From Micromonospora sp. WMMD812 (GTDB lineage Bacteria; Actinomycetota; Actinomycetes; Mycobacteriales; Micromonosporaceae), in NCBI RefSeq assembly GCF_027497215.1, contig NZ_CP114904.1, forward strand, positions 5,982,501 to 6,046,500: a DNA stretch of 64,000 nucleotides, in the 5' to 3' direction. Positions 11,798-51,052 of this stretch are shown here, piece by piece; positions within the stretch are counted from its first letter, which is position 1; each line of letters opens with the position of its first letter. The position numbers were made by a program, and so were the translations under genes. The notes under the pieces were generated by a model. It was not told where the DNA came from. It saw only the letters and a program-made list of their open reading frames with translations, and ran no database searches.

Positions 11798-12931
11798 TCA
11801 GCGGGCCGCCGGGCCGCCGTCCACCAGCACCTCGCGCGGCCGGGAAGGTCCGGCGATCGCGCCGGACGTGCCGGTGCCGCCGGTGGCGTCGGCGCCGTCG
11901 GTGGCGTCCGTCGGGCCGGGGCGCGGTACCCGTGCGGCCAGCCGGCGCCCTACGTTGATCATGGGTAGCTCGATCCACCGGTACAGCACGTCCGCGCCGA
12001 GCAGTCCCACCACCAGGGCGCCCAGGAACAGGCCGGTGCCGCGGTGCCCGATCGCCGGGACCAGCCCGGCCGCCGTCCGCGCGGCGATGGTCTGGATCAG
12101 ATACATCGAGTACGACCGCTCACCCACGAAGGCCAGTGGGCGCAGGCCCAGTCCGCGTGCCAGCGCGCTGCGGGAGAGCAGGGCCGGCAGCAGCAGCGCC
12201 GCGGCGGCGGCGTAGCCGCCGATCAGCAGTTCCTGACCGAGCCGGGCCGGCCAGAGCTGCACGGACACGTGCACCGCGACGAAGGCGACGATGGCCACGG
12301 TGGCGGTCACCGGGTGGGTCAGCGGCCGGACCAGGGCGAAGCCCCGGGGGTGGTGCATGACCACCGCCGTCAGGCAGCCGAGCAGGATGGCGACGTAGTG
12401 GACCGGCCAGCTCAGCCAGCCCACGTCCGGCGGAGTCAGCGCGATGAAGAGCGCGAGCAGGCCGACCGTCACCGCCAGCCGTCGGCGGAACGCGGCGGTC
12501 ACCACCACGAACGCGACGGCGGGCCAGAACAAATAGAACTTCTGTTCGATCCCGATCGTCCAGGAGTGCAGGTACGGCGCGCTCGACGGCAGGAATTCGT
12601 TGAGGAGGAGCAGGTAGTACCTCAGCAGGCGTTCGATCGTGCCGGCGCCGCCGTCGAGTCGCGCGAGCGCCCAGGTCAGGAAGAGCACCAGCAGGTAGAC
12701 CGGCATGATCCGGAAGAACCGACGCAGGTAGAAGGCGCGCAGCGAGACCTTGCCGTGCCGGTCCTCCTCGCGCAGCAGCAGCGTCGTGATCAGGAAGCCG
12801 GAGAGCACGAAGAACAGGTGTACGCCGATCCAGCCGGACAGCCACGTCCAGTGCGGCCCGCCGTAGTGGAAGGCGAAGACCATGATCGCGGCTAGCGCCC
12901 GCAGGCCGTCCAGGGCGGGAAATCGACGCAT
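11798..12931 (-). CDS. Acyltransferase family 3 (OafA-like) membrane protein
   Basis: 377 residues from the ATG at 12931, which gives the standard family N-terminus MRRFPALDGLRALAAIMVFA; ATGs at 13006 and 13054 would add 25-41 poorly conserved residues. About ten transmembrane segments. Family marks: FHYG with the conserved histidine near the N-terminus, GVHLFFVLSGFLIT, LRRFFRIMPVY, and GERSYSMYLIQ near the end. These enzymes O-acylate sugars or lipids at the membrane. The C-terminal tail is Thr/Gly/Asp-rich and disordered. No polysaccharide cluster adjoins it, so the substrate is unknown. Confidence 0.9.
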   Translation of the reverse strand: MRRFPALDGLRALAAIMVFAFHYGGPHWTWLSGWIGVHLFFVLSGFLITTLLLREEDRHGKVSLRAFYLRRFFRIMPVYLLVLFLTWALARLDGGAGTIERLLRYYLLLLNEFLPSSAPYLHSWTIGIEQKFYLFWPAVAFVVVTAAFRRRLAVTVGLLALFIALTPPDVGWLSWPVHYVAILLGCLTAVVMHHPRGFALVRPLTHPVTATVAIVAFVAVHVSVQLWPARLGQELLIGGYAAAAALLLPALLSRSALARGLGLRPLAFVGERSYSMYLIQTIAARTAAGLVPAIGHRGTGLFLGALVVGLLGADVLYRWIELPMINVGRRLAARVPRPGPTDATDGADATGGTGTSGAIAGPSRPREVLVDGGPAAR

Positions 12932-13126
12932 GGCCTGGAACTCGTCCCACCGCAGCGAACGCACCGGCGAAGTCTGCGCGAGCGGGCCAGCGGGGTCAAG
13001 CCGCATGGATGGGGCCGGATACGGGCACACCCGTGGGAGGAGGGTGGCGGGCACACCCGTCAGGGAAGGTGGCCGCGTCCGCTACCGTGACACCGCCTGC
13101 TTCGCACACGAACCGCCGGAGGACCA

Positions 13127-13822
13127 GTGCCGCTGCTCTACACCATCGGCAAGCTCACCGTGGCGCCCACGCTGCGGTTGGCGTTCCGCCCGACCGTGGA
13201 GGGGCTGGAGCACGTGCCGGAGACCGGTGGCGCGATCCTCGCCGGCAACCACCTCTCGGTGGCCGACGAGCTGTTCGTCGGCACGGTGGTGCCGCGGCAC
13301 CTGGCGTTCTGGGCCAAGTCCGAGTACTTCAAGGGCACCGGGCTGAAGGGCGCGTTCTCCAAATTCGTCCTCACCGGGCTCGGCGCCATCCCGGTCGAGC
13401 GGGCCGGCGGTCGGGCCGCGCTCACCGCGTTCGACGCGGCCATCCCGGCGCTCAAGGGTGGCGACCTGGTGGTGGTCTACCCGGAGGGGACCCGGTCGCC
13501 CGACGGGCGGCTCTACCGGGGTCGCACCGGCGCGGTCCGGTTGGCCATCTCCGCCGGCGTGCCGATCATCCCTGTCGGCATGATCGGCACCGAGAAGGTG
13601 CAGCCGATCGGCGCGCGGGTGCCCCGCCCGGGCTCCGGCAAGGTCATCGTCCGGTTCGGCAAGCCGCTGGACTTCACCGGCCGACCGGACGACCGCACCT
13701 CGCTGCGCGCGATGACCGACGAGTTGATGGCCGAGATCCAGAAGCTCACCGGCCAGGAGTACGTCGCCCGGTACGCCCCGCCGCGCGCGCACCCGGACCC
13801 GGTCCGCGACGGCCCGGTCTGA
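13127..13822 (+). CDS. plsC: 1-acyl-sn-glycerol-3-phosphate acyltransferase family protein
   Basis: 231 residues. PlsC/LPLAT fold: the catalytic NHLSVAD (HxxxxD pattern) near residue 41, the FKGTGLKG block, the phosphate-binding VYPEGTRSPDG, and the proline-rich IPVGMIGTEK. It acylates lysophosphatidic acid at the inner face of the membrane in phospholipid synthesis. The GTG start has GGAGGA immediately upstream. Actinobacteria carry several paralogs, so the exact acceptor is not certain. It is convergent with the photolyase gene, 6 bases apart. Confidence 0.93.
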   Translation: MPLLYTIGKLTVAPTLRLAFRPTVEGLEHVPETGGAILAGNHLSVADELFVGTVVPRHLAFWAKSEYFKGTGLKGAFSKFVLTGLGAIPVERAGGRAALTAFDAAIPALKGGDLVVVYPEGTRSPDGRLYRGRTGAVRLAISAGVPIIPVGMIGTEKVQPIGARVPRPGSGKVIVRFGKPLDFTGRPDDRTSLRAMTDELMAEIQKLTGQEYVARYAPPRAHPDPVRDGPV

Positions 13823-13828
13823 CCGGCC

Positions 13829-15301
13829 TCACGGCGGCGCGTTGCCGCGCCGTTTCTCCTGGTCGACGACCGCGTCCATGTCCGGTAGCCGGTTGAGCTG
13901 GGCCAGTTGCCGGGCCATCCGGGCGTTCTTCGGGATCCGGTCCTGGTTCCGGGCCAGGAAGGCCCAGTAGCCGGCGGTGTACGGGCAGCCCTTCTCGCCG
14001 AGGCGCTGCTTCGGGTCGTACCGGCAGCCACCGCAGTAGTCGCTCATCCGGTTGATGTACGACCCGCCGGCGACGTACGGCTTGGTGGTCATCCGGCCGA
14101 GGTCGGCGTACTGGCTCATGCCGACGACGTTCACCGTCATCACCCAGGCGTAGCCGTCGACGAAGCTGCGGTGGAAGAAGTCCACCATCTCGGCGGGCCG
14201 CCAGCCGCGTTGCAGCGCGTAGTTGCCGAGCACCATGAGCCGGGGGATGTGGTGCACCCAGCCGTGGTCGCGCAGGTCGGTCAGGACGTCGGCGAGGCAG
14301 TGCGCCTCGACGGCGTCGGCGTCCAGGTCACGGAACCAGTCCGGTACCGACCGGCGCGCGGCGAGCTGGTTGGCGCCCTGGTAGCCGGGTTCGAAGTACC
14401 AGTACAGGTTCCAGATGTAGTCGCGCCAGCCGATGATCTGCCGGATGAACCCCTCCACGCTGGGCAGCGGCGCGCCCTGCCGGCGGTAGGCCTGCTCGGC
14501 GCCCCGGACAGCCTCCATCGGGTCGAGCAGGCCCAGGTTGAACGAGGAGGAGAGCAGGCTGTGCGCCATCCACGGATCGGCGGAGAGCATCGCGTCCTCG
14601 TACGGCCCGAACTGCGCCAGCCGGTGCCGGAGGAAGTGCCGCAGCCGGGCCCGGGCCTCCCCGGTGGTGGCCGGAAAGCGGCGGGGACCGTCCCGGCCGA
14701 CGAACCGGATGCCGTCCCGTTCCCACCGGTCGAGGTCCGCCCGGACCTCGGCGTCGATGTCGTCCTCCTTCGGCATCGGGGGCGGGGGCACCTCGAGGCG
14801 CTCGACCCCCTTCGGCGGCGGCTCCCGGTTCTCCGGGTCCAGGCTCCACCGGCCGCCGACCGGCTCGTCCCCCTCGACGAGCACCCGGTGGTGCTGGCGG
14901 GCGAAGCGGTAGAAGGCCTCCATCCGCAGCGCCCCCCGCCGGTCGTCGGCCCACTCGGAGAAGTCGTCGATCGCGGTGACGAAGCCGCGCGGCGGCAGCA
15001 CGGTCACCTGGTCGAGCCCACGGACGAACCGCAGTGCCGCCCGCGAGGTCGGGTGGCACACCTCGAGCGGCTCGCGGACCTTTCGTAGCGCCTCGCGGTA
15101 GGTCTCGCTGCGGAGGTGGATCGCCTGGTCGCCGAGTTCCGCGGCGCGGTGCCGCAGGGCGGACAGGAGCAGGTGCGCCTTCTGCCGGTGGAAGGCGCGG
15201 CGCCGGAAGACCGCCTTCGACTCGATCAGCAGCACCGGTTGGCGGCGGTCGTCGAGGAAGTGCGGCCCCAGCTGGTCGGCGAAGAGCCACCGCCGCGACA
15301 T
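13829..15301 (-). CDS. Iron-sulfur bacterial cryptochrome / photolyase (FeS-BCP, PhrB type)
   Basis: 490 residues, about the length of prokaryotic (6-4) photolyases. Four cysteines at residues 335 (VEAHCLADVL), 423, 426 (DYCGGCRYD) and 439 (EKGCPYT) have spacings of 88, 3 and 13, the same as the Fe4S4 ligands known for Agrobacterium PhrB (350, 438, 441, 454). The C-terminal FAD domain shows MTVNVVGMSQYADLG and TKPYVAGGSYINRM. Known members repair (6-4) photoproducts using FAD and a lumazine antenna. Convergent with plsC. Confidence in the family is high; repair versus signalling cannot be told from sequence. Confidence 0.93.
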   Translation of the reverse strand: MSRRWLFADQLGPHFLDDRRQPVLLIESKAVFRRRAFHRQKAHLLLSALRHRAAELGDQAIHLRSETYREALRKVREPLEVCHPTSRAALRFVRGLDQVTVLPPRGFVTAIDDFSEWADDRRGALRMEAFYRFARQHHRVLVEGDEPVGGRWSLDPENREPPPKGVERLEVPPPPMPKEDDIDAEVRADLDRWERDGIRFVGRDGPRRFPATTGEARARLRHFLRHRLAQFGPYEDAMLSADPWMAHSLLSSSFNLGLLDPMEAVRGAEQAYRRQGAPLPSVEGFIRQIIGWRDYIWNLYWYFEPGYQGANQLAARRSVPDWFRDLDADAVEAHCLADVLTDLRDHGWVHHIPRLMVLGNYALQRGWRPAEMVDFFHRSFVDGYAWVMTVNVVGMSQYADLGRMTTKPYVAGGSYINRMSDYCGGCRYDPKQRLGEKGCPYTAGYWAFLARNQDRIPKNARMARQLAQLNRLPDMDAVVDQEKRRGNAPP

Positions 15302-15368
15302 GCCCCTATTGTCGCCCTTGCGGTGGCTTGCGCCGGGACCAAAAGGTGAATTCGAAAGGTGTGTCGCC

Positions 15369-16928
15369 TCAGTTCTGGTCCGCGGTGACGATCTGCTCGC
15401 GCAGGTCGTGAAGCAGAGCGGCGCTGTCCGCCACGTCGAGCCGGGTGAACACGCCGGTGGCGATGCTGCCGTGGTCGACCGAGGTGCAGACCACCACGCC
15501 GCCGCCGTCGGTGCGGCCCACCGCGCAGCGCGCGTAGCGCCCCCGTACGCCGGTGTCGACGTCCTCCACGGAGTCGAGCCGGTACTGCTGGGAGAGCCGC
15601 GCGATCTCGGCGTCCGCGTCCGCCTCGGGGGTCAGCCGGAAGCCGGTCCCGCCGAAGACGGTGACCCGCTTGCCGTCCGGAGTGGCGTAGACGCCGGCGA
15701 ACGTGTCCTCGGCCAGCCAGTGCGCCTTGCGGACATCCGTCTCCAGCTGCCGGACGGCCTGCTCGCTGCGGCTGTCGTCGCGCAGCGACAGGTCGTCCAC
15801 CTGCGCCGGAAGGCTGGCGTTGGCCGGGTACTGCGTCCAGATCGGTTTGCCGTAGTAGGCGGGGCAGCCGCAGCAGCAGGCGAGTGTGAGCAGCAGCAGC
15901 CACGGCCAGCGGCGCCGCTTGCGGACCGGGACCGGGACGTACCCCCGGGGGGCCCGCCAGCCGGCCGGTGGCGCGGCCGGCGGCGGCGTGGACGACCGCT
16001 TCTTCTTCGACCGGCGCTGCTTCGGCGGCGCCGGTGGTGGCGCGGGCGGTGCCGGGCGGGCCGTGACCGGCGGGCGGGACGCCGGCGGCGACATCGGTGG
16101 CGGCGCCGGGTGCGGTGGCGCCGGGTGCGGTGGCGCCGGATACGCGACCGGCGGTGGTGGCGCCGGGTGCGCCGGCGAGAGCGGAGGCGGCGCGGGCGGA
16201 CCGGCATAGGGGCGGGTCGGCGGCGGCGCCGGGTAGGGCAGCGTCGGCGGGAGCGCCGGCAGCTCGGCCGAGGGCAGGTCCCAACCGCCGGTGTCCGCCC
16301 CGGCCCACGGATCGACCGGCGCCCGGTGCTCGGGAAGCTCCTGCGGCGCGGGTGGCACCGGCGTCGGCTCGGCCGACTCGCCCCAGGCACGCCGCCGGGG
16401 CAGCGGCGGCGGCACCGAGGCGGAGCCGCTCCAGCGGGCCGGCGGGGGATCGGCCTCGCCGGCCGGCAGCCAGCGGGTGCCGGACGGCCCGTCGGCGCCC
16501 GGCGTCGGATCGTCGCCGGCCGGCGGCTCGTCGTCGGCGTCGACGAGCGTCGCGCTGTCGTCGGCGTCGGCGGGCGTCGCGCTGTCGTCGGCGTCGCCGG
16601 ACGCCGGATCCGCCAGCCGGCGGGTGCCGTCCGGGCCGTTGCCCGGTGGCTCGGCCACGGCGGTGTCGCTCTCGTCGGCGGGGGCGGTGGTCGCCCGCGG
16701 TCCGCCCGCCGAGGGCCCGGGCGGGGCCGCCGGGTCGGTCGCGACCCGGGGCGGTGCGGGTTCGTCGGCTTCGGGCTCCGGCGGGGCCGCCGGGTCCGGG
16801 CGGGAGGCGCCCTCCGGCGGTACGGGGGAGGAGGTCGTGTCCCCGGCGACGGCCGGATCGCGGTCCGGCCCCGTGCCCGGGGTGCTCCCGTCGGCCGGCC
16901 GGTCTGCCCCCGGCTGCGGCTCCGGCAT
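15369..16928 (-). CDS. Proline-rich single-span membrane protein
   Basis: 519 residues. The first 350 or so are disordered and Pro/Ala/Asp/Thr-rich, with runs such as APPHPAPPHPAPP. Then a basic patch (KRRRWP), one membrane segment rich in Leu and Cys (WPWLLLLTLACCCGCPAYYG) and an extracytoplasmic domain of about 150 residues ending in VDHGSIATGVFTRLDVADSA. That last domain resembles the protein at 2327-3016. The ATG at 16928 has AGAGGAGA upstream. Proline-rich cytoplasmic tails on membrane proteins are common in mycelial actinobacteria. No catalytic motif seen. Confidence 0.8.
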   Translation of the reverse strand: MPEPQPGADRPADGSTPGTGPDRDPAVAGDTTSSPVPPEGASRPDPAAPPEPEADEPAPPRVATDPAAPPGPSAGGPRATTAPADESDTAVAEPPGNGPDGTRRLADPASGDADDSATPADADDSATLVDADDEPPAGDDPTPGADGPSGTRWLPAGEADPPPARWSGSASVPPPLPRRRAWGESAEPTPVPPAPQELPEHRAPVDPWAGADTGGWDLPSAELPALPPTLPYPAPPPTRPYAGPPAPPPLSPAHPAPPPPVAYPAPPHPAPPHPAPPPMSPPASRPPVTARPAPPAPPPAPPKQRRSKKKRSSTPPPAAPPAGWRAPRGYVPVPVRKRRRWPWLLLLTLACCCGCPAYYGKPIWTQYPANASLPAQVDDLSLRDDSRSEQAVRQLETDVRKAHWLAEDTFAGVYATPDGKRVTVFGGTGFRLTPEADADAEIARLSQQYRLDSVEDVDTGVRGRYARCAVGRTDGGGVVVCTSVDHGSIATGVFTRLDVADSAALLHDLREQIVTADQN

Positions 16929-40036: not shown

Positions 40037-40885
40037 GTGTCACACGATGACGAGACCGTGGTACGGCAGCGCCTGTGGCGGTTGGCGGCCCCGCCGTCAT
40101 CGCGGCCGGCACCGGCAGTCGGCTCGTCGCTGTCCGACCCTTCCCCGCCCGGCGCCCCGCCGGCGGTGCCGTCGACCGGTGTCGCCAAGCCGTCCACGTT
40201 GGACACCCCGTCGGAGGGCGAGACCGGCGTGGCCCGCCGGCTGCCGGGTCCCGGGGCGTTCGATCCCGGGCGCCGCGGCGTACGGGCGCTGGCCGCCGTC
40301 GCGGCGGTGGCGGTGCTCGGCGCCGGCTTCTGGGCCTGGCGCTCCCGCCCACGGGCGGAACCGGTCCGACCGGTTGCGAACGCCGCCGTGCCGATGGCGG
40401 ACGGCGCCGGCGAGACCGGCGCGAGCCCGGCGGGCGAGCTGGTGGTGGCGGTCGCCGGCAAGGTGCGCCGTCCCGGGCTGGTGCGGCTGCCGGCCGGCGC
40501 CCGGCTGGCCGACGCGGTGGAGGCGGCCGGTGGGGCGCTGCCCGGGGTGGACGTGGCCCTGCTCAATCCGGCCCGCAAGGTCGTCGACAGTGAGCTGATC
40601 GTGGTCGGGGTCATCCCACCGCCCGACGCCGCGGCCCCGCCGGCCGCTGCCCCCGGCGCGGGCGCCGTCCCGGGCGCGGGTGCCGCGCCCGGCGGGCGGG
40701 TCAATCTCAACACCGCCACCCTCGCCCAGCTCGACGCGCTGCCCGGGGTCGGCCCGGTGCTCGCCCAGCGCATTCTCGCCCATCGCGAGCAGCAGGGCGG
40801 CTTCCGGTCGGTCGGCGACCTCCGGCAGGTCGAGGGGATCGGCGACGCCCGCTACGAACAGCTCAAGGACCTGGTGACGGTGTGA
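40037..40885 (+). CDS. comEA: ComEA family DNA-binding protein
   Basis: 282 residues. A membrane segment near residues 93-107 (LAAVAAVAVLGAGFWAWRS) anchors the protein, with a Pro-rich cytoplasmic start. Then a SLBB-like domain (LVVAVAGKVRRPGLVRLPAG) and, at the C-terminus, paired helix-hairpin-helix motifs (VNLNTATLAQLDALPGVGPV, VGDLRQVEGIGDARYEQLKD) that bind duplex DNA. It is the receptor for DNA uptake across the wall. It overlaps comEC, its usual partner, by four bases; comEC here is broken. Confidence 0.93.
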   Translation: MSHDDETVVRQRLWRLAAPPSSRPAPAVGSSLSDPSPPGAPPAVPSTGVAKPSTLDTPSEGETGVARRLPGPGAFDPGRRGVRALAAVAAVAVLGAGFWAWRSRPRAEPVRPVANAAVPMADGAGETGASPAGELVVAVAGKVRRPGLVRLPAGARLADAVEAAGGALPGVDVALLNPARKVVDSELIVVGVIPPPDAAAPPAAAPGAGAVPGAGAAPGGRVNLNTATLAQLDALPGVGPVLAQRILAHREQQGGFRSVGDLRQVEGIGDARYEQLKDLVTV

Positions 40886-41529
40886 ACCTGCGACCCGACG
40901 GGCCGGAGCAGGTCGACGCCGGCACGCCTCCGGCGGCGTACGGGCCGGATCTGCGGCTGGCCGGGCTGGCGGTGGCGGCGTGGCTCACCGCCCTGGCCGG
41001 GCTGCACCTCGACGCCGCGACCACGTTGCTGATCGCGGGGGCGGCGGCCGTGCTCGCCGTCGCCGGCGCGCTGCACCTGCTCGGTCTGCTCGGGCGGCCA
41101 CGGGCCGTCGTCCGGCGGGACGGCTGGATCGCCGTCGCGGTGGGGCTCGGCGTCGTCTGCGGCGGCACGACCACCGCCGCGCGGCTGGCCGTACGCGACG
41201 CGGCTCCGCTGCGCGCCCTCGCCGAGCAGCGGGCGAGCGTCACCGCCGAGCTGGTCGTACGGGACGATCCCCGTCCGGTGCGGGGCGCCCCCGGCCGACC
41301 GGCCACCCTGCTCGTGCCGCTGGAACTGGTCGGCCTGTCCGGCCCGGACGGCCGGTGGATCAGCGCCCCGGTCCGGGTGCTGGTGCTCGCCACCGACCCG
41401 AGCTGGCGGAGCCTGCTGCCCGGGCAGCGGCTCAGCGCGGAGGGCCGGCTCGGCGCGCCACGGGGCGGCGACCTCACCGCCGCCGTGCTGGCCGTCGCCG
41501 GCCCACCGGCCCACCACGGTACTCCTTGA
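40882..41529 (+). pseudogene. comEC: comEC, 5' fragment (disrupted)
   Basis: 215 residues ending at a stop in GPPAHHGTP. It holds the first three membrane segments (AVAAWLTALAGLHLDAATTL, LIAGAAAVLAVAGALHLLGL) and the OB-like periplasmic domain (AEQRASVTAELVVRDDPRPV; ALEGRL). The gene resumes at 49466. About 60 residues around the start of the Competence domain are missing from both pieces by comparison with the family's layout. So this ComEC cannot form the channel, although comEA is intact. The start overlaps comEA. Confidence 0.88.
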
Positions 41530-41586
41530 GGGAGACCGCACCCCACGGCCTGCTCGCCCCGAAGTTGATCCCCAACAGGGTCACCC

Positions 41587-43134
41587 TCACCGAACTCGCC
41601 AGCTCCCCTGCGGCTGCTTCTCGGGCATCATCATGGGCCGCTGCAGCTTGCCCTGGGAGGCCAGCGCAAGCCAGCCTGCCCACCTGTCGACGAACTCATC
41701 CATCGCATCGATCGATAGAGGAGTGAACGGCCACGCCACCTGCACTCGCATGAGCCCGGGACCGATGGCTTCCGCCGCGTCGGATCCAGGGCTGAGCGCG
41801 TACGGATCGCGCGGACGGTCGCCTGCTCGCATCATCGGCTGATCCATGAAGGCCGTCTCGTACCAGTGGTACTCACCCGCCGTCTGCGCATCGCAGTACC
41901 AGAGGGAGTGACTTCTCCCTTCGTAGCCCTGATAGTTCGAAGGTGCCACGAGGCTCAGGCCAGCCGAAGCAACAACGTCGATGGGAGTTCTCGACTGCCC
42001 CCAGGGGTGCCGTTGTTCCTGAAGCGGGCCATCGAAGACCAGCTTCGCCCCGTTGAGGCTGATGGTCCAACCATCGCGGGACCTCCGTGCTTGGGGTCCG
42101 GCCGCGGGCTGCCTCTGAGCGAAGGTTGCTGCAGGAGCGTTCGCCAGGATGGCGTCCTTCAGGTAGTCCATCATCCTGGTCAAGGCTCGGCTTGCTGACT
42201 GCGCCAGCTCTTCTCTCCGCTCCTCCTCCGAGCGGGCTTCGGATGCTGCCCGTTCCTCCTCCCGGATCCGGTTCACCTCAGCAAGGTTCGCCTGCTGCAA
42301 CTGCGCCAACCCAGCCGACGGCGTGGCCTCGACGGCTCGCGTCAAGCGGGCAAGCAGGTTGGAGGGAGTCGGCCTCGCATCCATCCCCTTGTAGAGACAC
42401 TCGTCGATCATGGCAGCGATCGGCAGAGGAACGCCGCTGAGCAGTTCGGGGTTCTGGTGCAGGTGCTGCTCACGGAAGTCGTGGGCTTCTGGGCCCTCGA
42501 AGGGCCAGTTCCCCGAGAGCAGCTCGTAGGCGATCACGCCAAGGGCGTAGACATCTGTTGCAGACGTGGCCCTTATGCCGCGCCACTGTTCAGGCGCGGC
42601 GTACGGGGGTGTCATCGAGTACTTCCGAGTGTCCGGGGCCGTCGAGGACTCGGCGTATCGGGAGATGCCGAAGTCGGCCAGACACCAGTGTCCGTCGAGC
42701 AGGAGGACGTTCTCGGGCTTGAGGTCGCGGTGAACTACTCGGCCGTGCAAGTCGCTCAGGGCGGTTGCGATGTCCGTGAGGATGGTCAGAGCCTCGGCCA
42801 GCGAGAGCCGGCCCTGTGCGCTTTCAATGTGTTCCCGCAGCGACTTCTCGGCCCTCGGCATGACGAGGACCCAGTTGTCCTCCGTCTCGCCCCGATCGAT
42901 GATCGGCACAACGTTCCGGGCCCCGGCAAGGTCTACGAACAACAACTCCCGCTCAGCTCCTGGCCCCTTCGGAACGAGCTTCGCTACGGCGTTCGGGACC
43001 TGGTCGGAGCTTGCCTCCAGTACCCTCCCGAAGCCGCCTCCTCCTACCTGCTCGCCGAGCGTCCATTCGCTCGCGAGCAACAACCGCTGCCCCACGCTGC
43101 CTCGCCCCTCATCGCACTCACCGCTGCCAATCAT
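41587..43134 (-). CDS. Serine/threonine protein kinase with coiled coil and unknown C-terminal domain
   Basis: 515 residues. Kinase domain about 20-285: glycine loop GEQVGGGGFGRVLEA, catalytic Lys52 (NAVAKLV), HRDLKPEN at 135-142, DFG at 154-156, APE at 180-182. A Glu/Arg-rich coiled coil follows (VNRIREEERAASEARSEEER) with MMDYLKDAILA, then a C-terminal domain of about 170 residues with aromatic strands (SHSLWYCDAQTAGEYHWYET) that I do not recognise. No membrane segment or PASTA repeats, so it is not PknB-like. A GTG at 43095 with GAGGGG upstream may be the real start. Last gene of the cargo block; 40 bases after the small charged protein. Confidence 0.9.
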   Translation of the reverse strand: MIGSGECDEGRGSVGQRLLLASEWTLGEQVGGGGFGRVLEASSDQVPNAVAKLVPKGPGAERELLFVDLAGARNVVPIIDRGETEDNWVLVMPRAEKSLREHIESAQGRLSLAEALTILTDIATALSDLHGRVVHRDLKPENVLLLDGHWCLADFGISRYAESSTAPDTRKYSMTPPYAAPEQWRGIRATSATDVYALGVIAYELLSGNWPFEGPEAHDFREQHLHQNPELLSGVPLPIAAMIDECLYKGMDARPTPSNLLARLTRAVEATPSAGLAQLQQANLAEVNRIREEERAASEARSEEERREELAQSASRALTRMMDYLKDAILANAPAATFAQRQPAAGPQARRSRDGWTISLNGAKLVFDGPLQEQRHPWGQSRTPIDVVASAGLSLVAPSNYQGYEGRSHSLWYCDAQTAGEYHWYETAFMDQPMMRAGDRPRDPYALSPGSDAAEAIGPGLMRVQVAWPFTPLSIDAMDEFVDRWAGWLALASQGKLQRPMMMPEKQPQGSWRVR

Positions 43135-43174
43135 TCGAGACTACGCAACGGGTCAGACACCGGTTGAACCTAGA

Positions 43175-43732
43175 TCAGGACTTCTCAGCGATGTCCTTGA
43201 GCCAGTCGTTGATCCACCTCATGTGGTCACCCGCGCCGATCCCGTTCTGGTCCCTCAGCACCTCTTGAACGCCGCTTACAGCCCCCCTGAGCTGACGCAG
43301 CTCCTCAGCCACAGCGAGGACCGCATATGTGAGCGCCTGGCGGTGCAGACCGGCGTTGTCGCCCAGGTCGAGATCGCCCTGGTTGGCGGCCTCCAGCAAG
43401 TTGATCGCCGTCTCGCTCAGGCTCACCTTCGGCATGACGCATCCCTCCCCGTTAATCGGCCTATCGGGGGATCTTGTCGGATTCGCTGCTGATGGTGTTG
43501 GCACTGTCGGCTGGACGACAGAACGGGCCCTCACCGCCCTCGACGGTAGCTGGCCTGATGGGCCGCCACTCTCGCGAGGAATGACCTTGATGCCAAGGCA
43601 GGCGTTGGCGGCCGCCCACTGCTCCCATGTCGGTGGAGGTGCCTTGGCGAGTTGGCGCTGGATCCACGCCTCGCGGGCCGCCTCCTCTGCTGCGGCACGC
43701 TCCTCACGACGACTTCTCTTGGCGGCGCTCAT
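43175..43732 (-). CDS. Small charged protein, with a possible internal start
   Basis: 185 residues. The ATG at 43732 follows GAGGAGG. The N-terminus is a basic/acidic helix (AAKRSRREERAAAEEAAREA). A second start, ATG 43435 preceded by GGGGAGGG, would give an 86-residue product (PKVSLSETAINLLEAANQGD) with the compact helical C-terminal half. Both fit in one frame, so two products are possible. No family recognised. It lies between the HNH gene and the kinase gene on the same strand, 124 and 40 bases apart, so the three are probably one transcript. Confidence 0.65.
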   Translation of the reverse strand: MSAAKRSRREERAAAEEAAREAWIQRQLAKAPPPTWEQWAAANACLGIKVIPRESGGPSGQLPSRAVRARSVVQPTVPTPSAANPTRSPDRPINGEGCVMPKVSLSETAINLLEAANQGDLDLGDNAGLHRQALTYAVLAVAEELRQLRGAVSGVQEVLRDQNGIGAGDHMRWINDWLKDIAEKS

Positions 43733-43856
43733 CCCTGCCTCCTCTTGGGTGGCTTGCTTCTCTACCGAGCGGAGGTGCCGCGAGGCGACGGCTGGTGGGC
43801 GTTGCTCCTGCCGAGGGGGAGACTGGTCTAGTGGCCAGCCCTCGACCGCACCGTGA

Positions 43857-44951
43857 TCAGGCGCCCTGCTTGATGAGAATGTAGGACCAGGCACCTAGCG
43901 CGGCTACTACCGCGAAGCCGCACCAGAACATGCCCCACCTGAAGGCACGCCAACTCCAGTCGCCCCCTCCATTACCGCTACCCGCGGTCCGGGCGAAGTT
44001 GTCGGATGCCTGTTCGATCGATCGTGCGGTCTCGCCCATCCCTTGCGCGGAAGCGATGGCCCGATGCAGGCGATCCGCGACGTTGTCAAGCTCGTAGATC
44101 TTGCTGTCCAGGTTGTCGAGGCCGGCACCGGCGATTCGATCCGCAGCGTTCGACAGCTTCTCCGCGTTGAGGCTGACCAGCTCGAACCTCCCGGCCGCCT
44201 CTCGCAGCGGTGCCACGTAATCCGGAAGGTTTATGAGGCCTCGCGAGGCCTCATAAAGCATGGGCGCGTACTCCCGGGCGTTCCGGAGTCCGCTTGCTGA
44301 CTCATACAACATCGAACCGAAGTCCTCCAGCGTGCGAAGGCCCTGCGCCGACTCGTGCAGCATCCAAGTCTGGTCTTCAAGATCGGAAAAGACGCGTGCA
44401 CAGAACTCCAGTCGTGCGATGGCTTCTTCGCTCATGTAGGGCTCGTGGAAGGATGCACTCACCATGGACTTGATCAACTGCAGAGTCTCGTTGCTCACGT
44501 CCCTTAGCTGATCGATCGCATCGATTATCTCTTCTTTCGTCTTGTTGACGGCGAGTTCCATTCGCTCTTGAAGTAGCTCATCGTCGAGCGGTGGCAGCTT
44601 CACGAGTGTGGCGGCTAGGTCCCCTTCCCGCTTCTTCTTCCACTCGTGCAGCAAGGACGCTGGGTATAGCTCTTCCCATAGCTTGAGGTCGTCGACTTCG
44701 GTGTGATGTGGTGCGCATAGCAGGATGAGGTTCTTGAAGCTGTTCCGTTGCGAGATGCTCATCTTGGAGTCGTAGCGCGCCTCGCCCTCGGCCAGGGCAC
44801 AGATGTGTGCGATCTGCACGTTGACCCTTGGCGCTCCGCTCTCGGTCATCCGAAGGACGCGCGTCTTGCACTTCGGCGCGTAGCAAGTTCCACGGCTCAG
44901 CATGTAGAGAGCCTTCTCTGTGCCCGAGCCGTAGTAGCGGCTGTTGCTCAT
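43857..44951 (-). CDS. HNH-type nuclease domain protein with 17-residue repeats and C-terminal membrane anchor
   Basis: 364 residues. The N-terminal 100 hold an HNH-like zinc nuclease: Cys23 and Cys28 (TCYAPKC), His49 (VQIAHICA), Asn74 and the CAPHH at 79-83. Residues 197-264 are four tandem 17-residue repeats starting MLHESAQGLRTLEDFGS and MLYESASGLRNAREYAP. Then a helical region and a single hydrophobic C-terminal segment (FWCGFAVVAALGAWSYILIK) near 342-361. The nuclease therefore sits in the cytoplasm, tied to the membrane. This layout is not one I know. First gene of the HNH, small protein, kinase block. Confidence 0.85.
   Translation of the reverse strand: MSNSRYYGSGTEKALYMLSRGTCYAPKCKTRVLRMTESGAPRVNVQIAHICALAEGEARYDSKMSISQRNSFKNLILLCAPHHTEVDDLKLWEELYPASLLHEWKKKREGDLAATLVKLPPLDDELLQERMELAVNKTKEEIIDAIDQLRDVSNETLQLIKSMVSASFHEPYMSEEAIARLEFCARVFSDLEDQTWMLHESAQGLRTLEDFGSMLYESASGLRNAREYAPMLYEASRGLINLPDYVAPLREAAGRFELVSLNAEKLSNAADRIAGAGLDNLDSKIYELDNVADRLHRAIASAQGMGETARSIEQASDNFARTAGSGNGGGDWSWRAFRWGMFWCGFAVVAALGAWSYILIKQGA
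44230..44257. repeat. 28-bp perfect palindrome inside the HNH gene
   Basis: TTTATGAGGCCTCG followed at once by its exact complement. It encodes LYEASRGLI of the third 17-residue repeat. A perfect 28-bp palindrome in coding DNA is unlikely by chance; it might mark a recombination or binding site. Confidence 0.95.
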
Positions 44952-45581
44952 GCTTCTCTCCCGACCATCTCGCGTCGAGCGACCACGCTAGGCGAGAGGG
45001 GTGACACTCACCGCTGATCAAGAACTTCTCGCACTCGGTGCACTCCACACTTATCGGGCCGCAAGGACGTGTCTGGCCGACTGCGAGTTGCGCGGTCCAT
45101 CGTGGAGAGCATGGCCGACTTCGGCCTGACTGGCGTTAGGTCCAGCGTGTGCGGCGGGCGGCCCGCGCGCTCGGGCGTGGCGGGCCGGTTGTGTCGGTGG
45201 GAGCCAGTACAGTGATGTGAAGCCATGTCATGACTGCGGCGCTTCTAGCAGCCGGTCGGGCGGGCCCTCACTTGGCACTCTGCCCTGTCGGCTTCCCAGC
45301 CCCCTTCAAGATCACCTCAACCACAACATGTTGTGGTCATTTTGACCGCATGCTACTACCCCTTGGGGTGCATCGTTGCGGTCCTGAATGGAATGTGGTT
45401 GACTACTGCCGGAGGCAAGAAGCCTTTAGGAACACAACAACCCGGCGGAGCCGGGTGGCACCGTCGGGTCGTTGGGTCTATTCGCGGTAGATCTCAACCT
45501 TACCAACCTTAGCTTCGGGACGACTAGTCCCCTGGTGGGTGTCGGCGGTGCTCCGTTGTGCGATGACGAAAGGAGCACGGC
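44952..45581. other. 630-bp gap between divergent element genes, mostly unassigned
   Basis: No convincing gene on either strand: open frames here lack ribosome-binding sites and have poor composition. The gap holds an 18-bp palindrome at 45320-45337, a short hairpin ACCCGGC-GGA-GCCGGGT at 45440-45456, and AT-richer DNA near 45340-45420 that may carry promoters for both directions. Confidence 0.6.
45320..45337. promoter_or_regulatory. 18-bp perfect palindrome, probable operator
   Basis: ACCACAACATGTTGTGGT is fully self-complementary and lies between the divergent HNH and small-ORF genes of the element. Such sites bind dimeric repressors; the HTH protein of the element is a possible partner. 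Confidence 0.6.
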
Positions 45582-45806
45582 ATGGGTAAGAGATGGCGCG
45601 GCAGCAGGCGCAGGCCGGCGGGACGGATGGAGGTCCGGTCGTCGGTCCGGCTGACGCAGCAGCCGGGTGAGTACGCCCGCTACTCCGGCATCTGGCAGGC
45701 CCTGAGGGGTGAGTACCAGGCCACCGTCGTCCGGGGGCGCCGGATGCCCCCGACGCGACTCGGTGGAGCGTGGGTGCTGCTGAGGCGGACCCGCACCAAG
45801 CAGTAG
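45582..45806 (+). CDS. Small basic hypothetical protein of the element
   Basis: 74 residues (GKRWRGSRRRPAGRMEVRSS; ends LGGAWVLLRRTRTKQ). The ATG follows AGGAG at 6 bases. Highly basic and Arg-rich. I do not recognise it; similar short basic proteins occur in actinomycete integrative elements. Convergent with the FtsK-like gene, with a hairpin between. Confidence 0.55.
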   Translation: MGKRWRGSRRRPAGRMEVRSSVRLTQQPGEYARYSGIWQALRGEYQATVVRGRRMPPTRLGGAWVLLRRTRTKQ

Positions 45807-45820
45807 CTGGTCAGTAGCCA

Positions 45821-45860
45821 AGCCGGCGGCTCCGCTCGTGATGAGGGGAGCCGCTCGGCT
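45821..45860. terminator. Hairpin between convergent element genes
   Basis: An imperfect 17-bp stem (AGCCGGCGGCTCCGCTC with GAGGGGAGCCGCTCGGCT; one bulge and one mismatch) lies 15 bases after the small basic gene and 10 before the end of the FtsK-like gene, so it can stop both. Confidence 0.65.
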
Positions 45861-45869
45861 GTGCGGCTT

Positions 45870-47633
45870 CTACGCGGAAGTGATCGGGTCCTCGGTCCTG
45901 CCCTGTGCCCAACGGGCAAGGTCTGCTCTCGCGTACAGGTCCGCGTTCCCAGTCTTGCCCCTGGCTTCGGGCACCTGGCCGACTCGCCGCTGTAGCCGCT
46001 TCTTCGCGGCGTCGAGCTTCCACGGCACCACGCCAGTCTCGACCGCCTCGCGCAGGGTCATGAAGTCCCCGGCAGGGCTTGATAGGCCGTTGACATGGGA
46101 TGTCTCCGGGGACCGGGGACATGCCAGCGTGCGAGCCTCGGCAGCGGTCAGGTAGGCAACCTGCGTTTCAGTCGCCTGCCCACCGATGACCACCTGCCAC
46201 CGGCCGAGCGTGCGCGAGGCGCGAGGCATGGCCGCCTCGGGAACCAACATCTTCCAGTTGTTCGCCGTGTACCGGGCGAGGCAGCGGATGCCGAAGTTCT
46301 CCCGCGCCTCGGGCCCTCCGATCGCGCGAGCGGTGAGCATCTGCGCGATGGCCAGTACGTTGACCTTGGCGCTGCGGCCCATGAAGAGCAGGTCTGCCAG
46401 AGCCGAGACAGCCGGCGACCGCTTCGGGTCGCCCTTGCCGCGCGCTTCGACCCAGAAGTTGACGAGCTGCCCGATGGTGGCGTTCAGCTCCTCGGCGATG
46501 ACCAGGACGCGGGGACCGGGGTCCCAGTCTTCGGCCTCGTGCATGGCCAGGGTGTTGCGCTCGTCGGCGAGCGTGGCCAGGCGCACGAGCGCGTCATGCA
46601 CCTGCGCCGGCTTGGTGCAGTAGTCGACCCCGGCCAGGCCGAGGGCCCAGCGGTGCGAGCCCTTGCGGTCGAGGATGACCACCCGGCCGCCTCGGGCGAG
46701 AACCTGCACGGCGACCAGCTCGGCGAGTACGCTCTTGCCGGCACCCGTGCCGGCGCTGACCGCGATGTGCGGGGAGTCGTCGCGCAGGGACAGGGTCACC
46801 GGCCGGTCGCCGGCGCCCTGCCCGATGTAGAACTCCCACTCGGCCAGACGGGGCAGGTGCTCGGCGACTTGGTCGACGCCAACCCGAGCCGGCGGGCGCT
46901 TACGCACGGTCCACGTCGCCGTTACCCGCGGACCGACCTGGTGCCAGGACTCGACCAGGTCAGAGACCGGGATCTTGCTGCCGATGATGGAGGAGACGAG
47001 GTGCCGTTGCTCCTTGGTCAGGTACGGGGTGTCGGCGACCAGCTCGATGCGCGGACCCTGCTCGCCGTCGACCGGCCGGCGGAACGCGGCCAGCCGGGAC
47101 GTGACCGGCTCTGCCTTGCGCTGCACCGCCCATGCCGCCCGCTGAGCACGCTCAGGAAGCCACCGGATGATCGGCTCTACGTGCTCGCCGTACCAGGCTC
47201 GTACTGCCTTCTCGGCAGGGCTCAGCGGCTTGGCCAGCCGGGGCGTGAGGTTGCCCAACGAGGGATCAACATGCAGGCGCACGCCGGTCTGTAGACCCAT
47301 CGCCGGAGCGAGAGCAGCCAGGGTCGGGGCGATGTACTCCCGGTGGAACCGGCGCCGCACCAGCCGTTGCCGGCCGCGCCAGACGGCAGCCACGGCGGCG
47401 CTGCTGGCCGCAGTGAGCGAGGGATTGGGGAAGGCCACGGCCAGGCCGGCGGCAGCCGGCACACCGAGGCGGAATGCCTGACGCTGCCAGCCGGCCAGCC
47501 GGCCCGGACCCCGGTGGCGGTAGGGGTAGCCCTGCCGGCCGTCGAGAGGACGGCCGGACAGGTACCGGTAGACCACCCGGGGCACCGTGTGCTTGCGCCG
47601 CAGTCGGCGGATAGCCCGCTCAAGCTCGGTCAC
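45870..47633 (-). CDS. FtsK/SpoIIIE-domain conjugal translocase (TraSA-like)
   Basis: 587 residues. Two hydrophobic stretches near residues 55-90 suggest membrane attachment. The Walker A motif GTGAGKS is at 295-301 (AVSAGTGAGKSVLAELVAVQ), Walker B-like VLVIAEELN near 375, and sensor block NVLAIAQMLTARAIG near 435. The C-terminus TGNADLYARADLARWAQGRT resembles a small DNA-contact helix. In actinomycete integrative elements one such hexameric pump moves double-stranded DNA between mycelia. It ends the right-hand operon of the element. Confidence 0.9.
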   Translation of the reverse strand: MTELERAIRRLRRKHTVPRVVYRYLSGRPLDGRQGYPYRHRGPGRLAGWQRQAFRLGVPAAAGLAVAFPNPSLTAASSAAVAAVWRGRQRLVRRRFHREYIAPTLAALAPAMGLQTGVRLHVDPSLGNLTPRLAKPLSPAEKAVRAWYGEHVEPIIRWLPERAQRAAWAVQRKAEPVTSRLAAFRRPVDGEQGPRIELVADTPYLTKEQRHLVSSIIGSKIPVSDLVESWHQVGPRVTATWTVRKRPPARVGVDQVAEHLPRLAEWEFYIGQGAGDRPVTLSLRDDSPHIAVSAGTGAGKSVLAELVAVQVLARGGRVVILDRKGSHRWALGLAGVDYCTKPAQVHDALVRLATLADERNTLAMHEAEDWDPGPRVLVIAEELNATIGQLVNFWVEARGKGDPKRSPAVSALADLLFMGRSAKVNVLAIAQMLTARAIGGPEARENFGIRCLARYTANNWKMLVPEAAMPRASRTLGRWQVVIGGQATETQVAYLTAAEARTLACPRSPETSHVNGLSSPAGDFMTLREAVETGVVPWKLDAAKKRLQRRVGQVPEARGKTGNADLYARADLARWAQGRTEDPITSA

Positions 47634-47636
47634 CGG

Positions 47637-48446
47637 TCAGCCCTCCTCATGGGACAGGTGGGCAAGGGCAGCGGCCATACCGAGCACGGCGACCGGCAGG
47701 CAGGCAACCAGGGTGGTGATCCACCACGGAGCCGACGTGATGCCGGCGGCGACCAGGAGGTGATAGGCCACCTGACCGAGGGCGCCAACCATGAGAGACC
47801 CGATGGCGGACCACTTGGCGAACCGGCGAGCCCGGGGCGGAACCAGGCCCGACAGCCAGGCTCGCAGGGCGTAGGCGGCGTAGACCTCAACGCCGATCGG
47901 CAGCGTGATGGCGGTGTTGAGGCTGAACCCGTCAGCGATTCCGGGCAGGGGGTGGACTACCCCGAACCCGGTGAGTCCGCCGAGCCCGACCCACCCGGAC
48001 CAGATAGCGACGAACGCGGGCAGCGCGATCAGCACCACCGGCCACGCGGCGAGCCGGCGAACCTTGCTCTTGCCTGGGGTGGCCTCGGTGCTGACCTGCG
48101 GGTGTCCGTCGTGCTCGACCAGCGGCGACGGCTCGGTGACCTTCTCGGCCGGAAGGATTAGCGGAACCGGGGTGGTGTCGACCGGCAGGGCCGGCGGGAC
48201 CGGGGCAGGCTCGGCGTACTGCCACGGGTCCGAGGCAGGCTCGGCCCCGGTCTCGTCGGGCGGGGTGATGGGCTCGGCGACCAGGGCCAGGCGCACGGCC
48301 TGAGCCTTGGGCGCACCCACCCTGAACTCGCGCATGATCTGGTTGCGCGAGGGGATCTCGCCGAGTCTGTCGGCCAGGTCCCGAACGGCAGGGAGTAGGT
48401 CGGCGACGGCACGCGGGTAGGCGCTGGTGACGGTAGCGGTGCTCAT
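47637..48446 (-). CDS. DUF2637-type spread-like membrane protein
   Basis: 269 residues. The N-terminal 60 carry a helix-turn-helix-like region (GEIPSRNQIMREFRVGAPKA). A Pro-rich linker follows, then four membrane segments (LAAWPVVLIALPAFVAIWSG, ITLPIGVEVYAAYALRAWLS, AIGSLMVGALGQVAYHLLVA, WWITTLVACLPVAVLGMAAA), the DUF2637 arrangement found beside TraSA genes, where it may act as a spread (Spd) protein. ATG 48446 follows GGGAGGG; it overlaps the stop of the next upstream gene and ends 3 bases before the translocase start. Confidence 0.85.
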   Translation of the reverse strand: MSTATVTSAYPRAVADLLPAVRDLADRLGEIPSRNQIMREFRVGAPKAQAVRLALVAEPITPPDETGAEPASDPWQYAEPAPVPPALPVDTTPVPLILPAEKVTEPSPLVEHDGHPQVSTEATPGKSKVRRLAAWPVVLIALPAFVAIWSGWVGLGGLTGFGVVHPLPGIADGFSLNTAITLPIGVEVYAAYALRAWLSGLVPPRARRFAKWSAIGSLMVGALGQVAYHLLVAAGITSAPWWITTLVACLPVAVLGMAAALAHLSHEEG

Positions 48447-48778
48447 CGGGCGATCCCTCCCACCCACTGCGCGATCTCGTCGGTGCTGGCCTGCGGCAGC
48501 GCAGCCCGGATCAGCCGGGCGGCAGCCTCGCGGGTGAGAGCGGGGTCGAGGACGATGACACGACGGCGGGGGAGCACGACGCACGGGGCACCCGTGCGCG
48601 CCTGGATGATCTGCACTGCTTCTCCTGCGGCGAGGGTGGAGGGAACGTCAGGGAGAGGAGCGACCGGCCGCTCGGCGTGCCGCTCGACCAGCCGGCGAGC
48701 GATGGCGAACGGGGCGAGCATCGAGACCGGTCCGCCGATGAGGATCAGGCCGAGCGCGTAGGCGGCGGTGCCGTTCAT
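48443..48778 (-). CDS. Small membrane protein of the element
   Basis: 111 residues with one N-terminal membrane segment (YALGLILIGGPVSMLAPFAI) and a C-terminal cytoplasmic domain (VIVLDPALTREAAARLIRAA). It overlaps both neighbours by four bases, so the HTH, this protein, the DUF2637 protein and the translocase are translated as one coupled set. Typical transfer-operon companion; function unknown. Confidence 0.8.
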   Translation of the reverse strand: MNGTAAYALGLILIGGPVSMLAPFAIARRLVERHAERPVAPLPDVPSTLAAGEAVQIIQARTGAPCVVLPRRRVIVLDPALTREAAARLIRAALPQASTDEIAQWVGGIAR

Positions 48779-49359
48779 CGGGCACCCGCCAGCGCCTCAG
48801 AGCGGCAGGGGATGCATCGGCCGGCGGGCTGGCCGACGTGCCCCGGCTTGGTGCAGCGGTCGCCACCGGCGGTCATCGGAAGGGCAGCGCCCTTGCGCTC
48901 CGGGTACGGGTAGCCGTTGGCGCTGGGGTTGTTGCCCTTGTTCTTGGGAAGGAACCGACGCCAGTCGCGGGCGCTTGCGCCCGTCTTCAACTTCCCTTGG
49001 TCTTCAGCACTTCGGGTGTCACCCTGGCTGTCACCCCCGGCGGGCTGATTCGTCACCTCCGCCGGCTGGTTCGTCACCCCCAGGCCGTTGTTCGTCACCC
49101 CCTGGCCGGTCACCAGCCGGTAGACGCGAGTGGCGATACCGGCGACCTTGGCGACGACCAGGCGGCCGAGCTGCACCAGCTTGGCGAGCGCCCGCTGCAC
49201 GGTCCGCTCAGAGCAGCCGGCGTACTCAGCGAGGGTGGCGACGGAGGGCCAGGCGTTGCCCTCGTGGTTGGTGTGAGCGGCGATGGCGATGGCCACGGCG
49301 CGCTCGTTCTTGCCGAGATCCTTGGTCGCAAGCAGGGCTTGCTTCACAGCTACACTCAT
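48775..49359 (-). CDS. Helix-turn-helix (HTH_36) protein of the element
   Basis: 194 residues. ERAVAIAIAAHTNHEGNAWP and SVATLAEYAGCSERTVQRAL are a winged HTH like those of plasmid initiators and HTH_36 regulators. The middle has repeats VTNNGLGVTNQPAEVTNQPA. The C-terminus has CTKPGHVGQPAGRCIPC, possibly a zinc knuckle. ATG 49359 follows GGAGG. It heads the transfer operon and is the best candidate for its regulator or for replication initiation. Confidence 0.85.
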   Translation of the reverse strand: MSVAVKQALLATKDLGKNERAVAIAIAAHTNHEGNAWPSVATLAEYAGCSERTVQRALAKLVQLGRLVVAKVAGIATRVYRLVTGQGVTNNGLGVTNQPAEVTNQPAGGDSQGDTRSAEDQGKLKTGASARDWRRFLPKNKGNNPSANGYPYPERKGAALPMTAGGDRCTKPGHVGQPAGRCIPCRSEALAGAR

Positions 49360-49465
49360 CGCGGGCGGACCTCCGTTGTCCGTCAAGGCCCCGGGTAACA
49401 GGTGTTCCAGCACCTGCCGGGGCCGTTCCTCTCTCGTCGACTCACCTCCCTAACTCACGTTCACT

Positions 49466-51052
49466 GGTTCCAATGTGGCGATCGTGGTGGGCGCGGTGCT
49501 GCTGGTGGCCCGCTGGGCTCGGGCCGGGCCGTGGCTCGCGGCCGGGCTCTGCGGAGTCGCCCTGGTGGGCTTCGTCGTCCTGGTCCGTCCCTCGCCGAGC
49601 GTGGTGCGCGCCGCCACCATGGGCGCGATCGGGCTCGCCGCGCTGGCCGCAGGTCGTCCGCGCGCCGCGCTGCCCGCGTTGGCCGCCGCGGTCACCGTGC
49701 TGGTGCTGGTCGACCCGGAGTTGGCCGGCGACCCGGGTTTCGCGCTCTCCGTGCTGGCCACCGGCGGGCTGCTGCTGCTCGCTCCGCGATGGCGCGACGC
49801 GCTGCGCCGGCGGCGCGTGCCGGCCGGGCTGGCCGAGGCGCTGGCCGTGCCGGCGGCCGCCCAGCTCGCGTGCGGCCCCGTCGTCGCCGGGCTCTCCGGC
49901 ACGGTCAGTCTGGTCGCGGTGCCCGCGAATCTGCTGGCGGTGCCGGCCATCGCCCCGGCCACGGTGCTCGGCGTGCTGGCCGCGGCGGTGTCGCCGCTCT
50001 GGCCGGCCGGCGCGGAGTTCGCCGCGTGGCTGGCGAGTTGGCCGGCGTGGTGGCTGGTGCTGGTGGCCCGCCACGGTGCCGCGTTGCCCGCGGGCACCCT
50101 GCCCTGGCCGGGCGGGGTGCCGGGAGCCCTGCTGTTGGCAGCGTTGACCGTGGCGCTGCTGGTGGCCACCCGGCGGCCCGTGGTGCGTCGGCTGGTGGCG
50201 GTCGTGACCGTCGCGGTGGTGCTCGGCACCCTGCCGGTCCGGCTGGTCGCCCGAGGCTGGCCGCCGGCCGGCTGGGTGGTGGTGGCGTGCGCGGTCGGCC
50301 AGGGCGACACGATCGTGCTTCCGGTCGGGCCCGGCCGGGCGGTGGTGGTCGACGCCGGGCCGGAACCGGCGGCGGTGGACAACTGCCTGCGCCGGCTCGG
50401 GATCCGTGAGGTGCCGTTGCTGGTGGTCAGTCACTTCCACGTCGACCACGTGGGCGGGGTCGCCGGAGTGTTCCGGGGGCGGCGGGTGGGCGGCGTGCTG
50501 ATTCCGGCGTGGACGGAACCGGAGACCGGGCAGGACCTGGTGCGGGAGGCGGCGGCCGGTGGGCGGGCGCGGCTGCTGACCGCCCCGGCCGGCTGGGCCT
50601 ACCAGGCGGGGACGGCGACGCTGGTCGTCCTCGGCCCGCCGTACGCGATGCGCGGCACCCGGTCGGACCCGAACAACAACTCGCTGGTGCTGCGTGCCAC
50701 CGTCGCGGGGGTGCGGATCCTGCTCCCCGGCGATGCCGAGACCGAGGAGCAGCGGGCCCTCCTGGATCGGATGCCGCCGGACGCGCTGCGGGCCGAGGTG
50801 TTGAAGGTGGCCCACCACGGCTCGGCCTATCAGGATCCGGCGTTCCTGGACGCGGTCCGCCCGGCGGTCGCGCTCGTGCCGGTGGGCGCCGGCAACACCT
50901 ACGGGCACCCACATCCGGCGTTGCTCGCCCGGCTGGCGAGGGGCGGCGTCCGGGTGCTGCGCACGGACACCGACGGCGACGTGGCAGCGGTGTACGGGAA
51001 CGCCGGTCTGGCGGTGGTGGCCCGGGGCGTCGCGCCCGGCCGGCAGCCGTGA
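49466..51052 (+). pseudogene. comEC: comEC, 3' fragment (disrupted)
   Basis: The reading frame resumes as GSNVAIVVGAVLLVARW. It carries the Competence domain (8-10 membrane segments) and the C-terminal metallo-beta-lactamase-like domain (VGQGDTIVLPVGPGRAVVVD, VVSHFHVDHVGGVAGVF with HxHxDH, and LKVAHHGSAYQDPAFLDAV). A GTG at 49475 has no ribosome-binding site. Together with 40882-41529 it represents one gene split by the element, with about 60 residues lost at the junction. Followed by holA as normal. Confidence 0.9.

Follow-up and report, generated by a model that had tools for sequence, protein, structure and literature searches.

The comEC locus of Micromonospora sp. WMMD812

In a stretch of 64,000 nucleotides from Micromonospora sp. 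WMMD812 (contig NZ_CP114904.1, positions 5,982,501 to 6,046,500; hereafter the window), the competence gene comEC lies in two pieces separated by 7.9 kb (41530-49465) that carry the transfer module and cargo genes of a mobile element. An original prediction, made from the sequence alone, had described a 215-residue 5' piece and a long 3' piece about 7.9 kb apart, and alignments to intact ComEC agree with it. With residues numbered by the intact ComEC of relative G067, the alignment of the 5' piece ends at residue 232 and the 3' piece corresponds to residues 291-819; a bridge of 60 residues is gone between them, as against the roughly 60 first proposed. The window has no copy of this bridge, the best match standing at E 0.54; in the genome itself, a 90-residue probe spanning the comEC site gave a single weaker match (1.8e-21). 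The host genome is one contig of 7,134,996 bases. GC content is 0.60-0.72 within the island versus 0.73-0.79 in the adjoining flanks, a value of 0.68 also occurring at 37-38 kb. Genomes are given by number below, G000 being the window's own; G073 is M. humi DSM 45647, G085 is M. veneta CAP181 and G023 is M. maritima DSM 45782 (loci letter-identical). The features of the locus are as follows.

40882..41529, plus strand: comEC 5' piece, N-terminal part, 215 residues (weak PF13567 match, 9.7e-6, below the cut-off)
41526..41530, no strand: left breakpoint, the end of comEC homology, without att sequence (comparison with five intact relatives and one split relative)
41587..43134, minus strand: Ser/Thr protein kinase, 515 residues, cargo, possibly defence (PF00069 1.4e-34; PADLOC mad6 1.2e-48 and PD-T4-6 7.6e-42, kinase domain only)
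43175..43894, minus strand: cargo protein of 239 residues, no family assigned (the G091 comEC element encodes a protein 81% identical to it)
43857..44951, minus strand: HNH-type cargo protein, 364 residues (PF13391 3.9e-4, just below the cut-off; PADLOC PDC-M68A 1.1e-25, residues 7-115)
45870..47633, minus strand: TraSA-like DNA translocase of FtsK/TcpA type, 587 residues (PF01935 7e-8)
47637..48584, minus strand: DUF2637-like membrane protein, its true start likely further in (conserved beside the translocase in G073, G060 and G035)
48443..48778, minus strand: small protein of 111 residues (homologues at the same place in G073 and G035)
48775..49413, minus strand: HTH_36 DNA-binding protein, 212 residues (PF13730 3.4e-16; 90-93% identical in G073, G060 and G035)
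49387..49424, no strand: inverted repeat of the right end, boundary of the shared transfer module (kept in G073, G060, G105, G085, G035 and G128)
49448..49490, no strand: attR, with element arm CCCTAACTCACGTTCACT, core GG at 49466-49467, then the comEC arm (element arm also in G073 and G060)
49466..51052, plus strand: comEC 3' piece with Competence and metallo-beta-lactamase domains (PF03772 4.8e-35, PF00753 3.9e-12)

The two junctions

The right junction is an intact attR. Positions 49448-49480 read CCCTAACTCACGTTCACT-GG-TTCCAATGTGGCG, with the element before the GG and comEC after it, and the crossover falls at the GG of 49466-49467. The 20-base arm CCCTAACTCACGTTCACTGG is identical in the window, in M. 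humi and in G060, at the equal position of comEC. Four relatives (G060, G105, G073 and G085) keep the other end as well: comEC runs to about residue 296 and is followed by GG, a second arm and the start of a large serine integrase (PF00239 plus PF07508), which in G060 begins 39 bases past the GG. An attP rebuilt from the two arms is strongly palindromic, as expected for a serine integrase; it was symmetric around GG at 26 of 44 positions for G060, 32 of 48 for G105 and 30 of 48 for G073.

At the left junction, comEC homology stops at about 41526-41529, 60 codons short of the crossover, and another 58 bases lead to the end of the kinase gene. A pattern scan found no att remnant there, and a remnant on this side was rejected on that basis. 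A left junction without an att site would be expected if the island had arrived without a serine integrase, by homologous recombination or transposition, or if it were an assembly join. However, the right junction is base-exact at a crossover common to other genomes, the shared attR speaks against random insertion, and a single contig together with the same attR arm in M. humi and G060 makes an assembly join unlikely; we regard these alternatives as very improbable.

Recurrence of insertion in comEC

The original prediction had held insertion within comEC to be unusual, which proved not to be so: among 160 genomes of the genus, 11 (the window's own included) have comEC broken here or 18 bp upstream, and four more at two other sites. 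When the 90-residue probe across the comEC site was run on these 160 genomes, the segment was whole in 140, partial in 11 and without a match in nine. With the segment whole in so many relatives, an ancestral island in comEC was rejected. Splits at the window's crossover (site B) occur in the window, G023, G051, G060, G073, G085, G091 and G105, whereas G011, G032 and G112 are split at site A, with its crossover 18 bp upstream of site B. Two further sites were found in genomes counted among the 140 that are whole by the probe, namely site C, at the HHGSA codons, in G035, G044 and G128, and site D, near residues 435-443, in G093 (~57 kb); each of these breaks has its own adjoining integrase. The right-hand comEC piece of G044 was not found within the 20 kb fetched. 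An element or remnant thus lies in comEC in 15 of 160 genomes, window included, and comEC is a recurrent landing site in the genus.

An integrase stands directly beside comEC in 12 genomes (G011, G032 and G112; G051, G060, G073, G085 and G105; G035, G044 and G128; G093), the adjacency in G073 being read across overlapping contig ends. These make up 12 of the 330 PF07508 matches in the genus, versus ~0.1 expected from a uniform draw with a 2.4-kb gene in a 7-Mb genome, a figure that gives scale only, since recombinases do not land uniformly. One of the integrase clades is also present in comEC of a second genus of the same family, g4, in which four genomes have, at residue 296 of the gene, integrases that share 49-59% identity with the G060 enzyme. 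Among 30 fetched loci, comEC lay beside the integrase within the flanks in eight. When 394 genomes of the class were searched, 10 had a match at E 1e-60, and one of these 10 loci (G481, same order but another family) adjoins comEC. In G481 the integrase is 37% identical and lies ~26 bases away from residue 295 of comEC, so that elements beyond Micromonosporaceae may use this site too.

We also built a tree of 34 integrases, in which 17 rows not at comEC were the top loci of the family search and not a random draw. Nine site-B integrases formed one clade (98/95; clade B hereafter), and those of sites A and C formed separate clades (99/98 and 100/100). The site-B integrase of G051 fell outside the site-B clade (p-AU 0.037 when all ten were held together). 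Two integrases weigh against a tight link between integrase and site: a broken one in G353 (60% identical over residues 184-485, 5 stops), without comEC in its short flanks, and one in G349 (47%), without comEC in 20 kb. The low share of comEC neighbours among the loci beyond the family, 1 of 10, points the same way.

Several of these loci differ in kind. The site-B element of G051 is phage-like, ~13.5 kb long, with tape measure and DNA polymerase/primase matches and its integrase at the opposite end; the ~57-kb element at site D in G093 is prophage-like, with ribonucleotide reductase, DnaB-like helicase, exonuclease and endolysin matches. Partial comEC matches lie beside integrases in G227 and G014 (residues 611-805 and 740-771). 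G014 and G124 are among the nine genomes without a match to the probe. In G124, comEC residues 16-241 and 742-819 remain, and the ~1.3 kb of other sequence that separates them contains no recognised element.

Probable loss of the integrase end

The prediction that 41530-49465 contains no integrase was borne out, since none was found among the eight element open reading frames scanned with Pfam, and the integrases of relatives (n=33) had no tblastn match in the window better than E 0.10. A PF07508 recombinase elsewhere was likewise rejected by a profile search of the whole genome, which gave no match at E 0.001; no search for tyrosine recombinases was made outside the window. By comparison, PF07508 matches occur in 123 of the 160 genomes from the genus. 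A related element with its integrase was found in both G073 and G060, and in these relatives with the same transfer module, attL and the serine integrase occupy exactly the position of the window's gap.

Because of this, the insertion followed by deletion that had originally been proposed gains support, and we consider it very probable that a serine-integrase element entered comEC and that a later deletion took its integrase-bearing left end and 60 codons of the gene. First, a mobile element with an FtsK-type transfer module would have entered comEC by recombination of attP with attB, at the GG dinucleotide within the codons of the conserved NAVSGSNVAI segment. Then the left end would have been deleted; attL and the 60 comEC codons would have gone together with the integrase gene, and probably other genes of that end as well. 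This copy would once have carried a clade-B integrase, the loss would have been one deletion, and the copy could presumably no longer excise by itself. That attL, the integrase and the 60 codons are missing is shown by the comparison, whereas their deletion we infer. The window element is apparently a decayed derivative and not a complete member of clade B, and it should be immobile unless mobilised by something else. ComEC function would be abolished in this host.

Three observations weigh against this history. We found no sister strain with the undeleted state, so that the deletion is read from absence. Both G073 and G060 lack the cargo block (41530-45870), leaving its arrival unexplained. 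Lastly, the comEC 3' piece shows no relaxed selection: its ratio of nonsynonymous to synonymous substitution rates (dN/dS) was 0.14-0.20 against six relatives, compared with 0.11-0.20 for pairs of intact copies, and therefore the gene was broken recently or this piece remains under constraint.

The cargo block also bears on a composite origin, in which two elements stood in tandem in comEC and the island is the right element plus the cargo of the left one, fused by deletion. Site A lies upstream of site B and a site-A attR leaves site B usable; GC content is lower in the cargo block than in the transfer module. G091 is in a state similar to that of the window, with its site-B attR kept and a genome in which the comEC 5' piece finds no match; ~27 kb from this attR it has a site-A-type integrase cut at residue 305 (91% identical, residues 305-454), and it carries the window's 239-residue gene. 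Nevertheless, the window contains no second att site or integrase remnant, and in G073 and G060 it is normal for cargo to lie between the integrase and the transfer module. We think a composite origin unlikely; it would refine, and not replace, insertion followed by loss of the left end.

Transfer module and cargo

Read from right to left, all on the minus strand, the element genes run HTH_36, 111-residue protein, DUF2637-like protein, 587-residue translocase, HNH-type protein, 239-residue protein and kinase. The translocase did not match PF01580 at E 0.01. Its phmmer match to TcpA was at E 0.0064, and the TcpA and FtsK motor folds ranked top in Foldseek (4.7e-9 and 8.1e-7, respectively), with a low-confidence predicted model (mean predicted local distance difference test score 57). 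The 47637-48584 protein had no Pfam match at E 0.01; its label, DUF2637-like, is that of the original prediction.

Identities of the window's proteins to those of G073 and G060 were 94 and 90% for the translocase, 93 and 91% for the HTH protein, and 86 and 78% for the DUF2637-like protein. A search of the genus with the translocase gave 18 long matches (at least 516 bits), seven of which were in comEC insertions (G000, G035, G060, G073, G085, G105 and G128). Of the other 11, eight were fetched, with no comEC match within the stretch, and three were not; the module is therefore not tied to comEC. Other clade-B carriers, G208 and G023 among them, contain little of the module or lack it. In G035, at site C, the integrase shares only 26-34% identity with the site-A and site-B enzymes, and the transfer module has 89% DNA identity to the window over 3.5 kb. 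Positions 12274-15800 of its locus (L054) match window 45931-49425, the similarity stopping at the right-end inverted repeat. With a nearly identical module beside a different integrase and at a different site, integrase and attP arm, neighbours in the circular form, seem to have been swapped as one cassette.

Contig 54 of M. maritima (L115, 1-100; 17551) starts with the right end joined to the left end at GG, the joined copy differing at one position from the element's own right end, and circles or tandem copies of this element may exist. On the M. humi element contig (L071), the ends are identical over 95 bp as in a circle, but a portion of the right end is absent from the join, which was not used as evidence. 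Conjugative transfer would be likely for the complete relatives. The joined ends of M. maritima, and complete relatives with both att sites and an integrase, would fit regulated excision that restores comEC when needed; the comK prophage of Listeria is reportedly excised in this way, restoring the gene it interrupts. In the window, however, attL, the integrase and the 60 codons are gone and exact restoration is impossible, which makes regulated excision here extremely improbable.

PADLOC was run on five elements (window, G073, G060, G044 and G091), the proteins of G073 and G060 having been picked after Pfam hits and not blind. All five gave matches, comprising kinase and HNH (window), C5 methylase and XamI nuclease, AbiTii, type III methylase, and HmaA/HmaB-like proteins. 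The last of these lie near the site-B attR of G091 (L041 11035-17093). The 1008-residue neighbour of the type III methylase had no PADLOC match, and two G105 proteins had no Pfam family. The cargo of the five scanned elements is predicted to be defence-like. For the window itself a defence role is weakly assigned, through general domains, as the matches of kinase and HNH protein to PD-T4-6/MAD6 and PDC-M68A/CBASS HNH effector cover generic domains only, and the kinase reached a score of 124.8 against a cut-off of 460 for the MAD6 NCBIfam model. Two fairly close relatives of the kinase exist in the genus (55 and 53% identical).

Comparison with known systems

The closest comparison is the 13.2-kb site-B element of M. 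humi (L071), which has the same crossover, attR arm and transfer module as the window; unlike the window, it keeps attL and integrase, and its cargo is a C5 methylase and XamI-type nuclease in place of kinase and HNH protein. With the clade-B elements in general, the window shares the GG crossover in comEC and the transfer module of G073 and G060, without the clade-B integrase.

The island had further been likened to the actinomycete integrative and conjugative elements (AICEs). The likeness holds for the actinomycete host and site-specific integration, and probably for the FtsK/TcpA-like motor, but not for the integrase, which AICEs have and which is lost here, nor for PF01580, unmatched here, nor for a recognised replication gene. 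In line with the earlier statement that no replication gene is visible, RepSA, RepAM and Prim-Pol had no Pfam/NCBIfam match in the scanned window reading frames, though RepSA has no known model in these libraries. The HTH_36 protein gave sub-threshold RepC/DnaD-type matches only, and no known replication initiator was recognised among the scanned proteins of relatives. In a survey of 144 AICEs, serine recombinases served 19 of them, and integration within protein genes also occurred (Ghinet et al., 2011, PMC3218068).

For large serine recombinases, DNA competence genes show a strong enrichment among the targets (Durrant et al., 2022, PMC10083194), although the word comEC does not occur in the main text of that paper. 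There, as here, diverse recombinases converge on one competence gene, whereas we observed several comEC sites in one genus. Elements in other hosts, with other integrases, likewise lie in transformation genes: they break comYC, comM, comFA and comK, and a mefA cassette breaks pneumococcal comEC, which Croucher et al. (2016, PMC4774983) model as protection from transformation. Interruptions of comM carrying defence systems (PMC11472951) and of comEC by transposable elements in Piscirickettsia (PMC12955456) are also described. Recombinases targeting competence genes are already published, and a comEC hotspot in actinomycetes is one for which we found no report: in the titles and abstract starts of the open-access literature searched, comEC was nowhere given as an actinomycete attachment site. 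Nor did we find a paper in that literature on DNA uptake or natural transformation in Micromonospora.

Biological meaning

Within one genus, comEC is the point on which separate integrase lineages and several element classes converge, among them transfer-module elements, a phage-like remnant and a prophage-like element of 57 kb. This suggests that ComEC matters to these elements. The overall pattern agrees with selfish elements that land in a competence gene and bring defence-like cargo. One possible, though doubtful, explanation is that breaking comEC protects the elements from replacement through transformation, and that comEC is for this reason a convergent landing site in Micromonosporaceae. 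If true, these actinomycetes would take up DNA through ComEC in nature, and the window's host, its integrase lost, would thereby have been locked in a non-competent state. Integrases whose attB sites are mapped here are possible integration tools, and DNA uptake in Micromonospora becomes directly testable.

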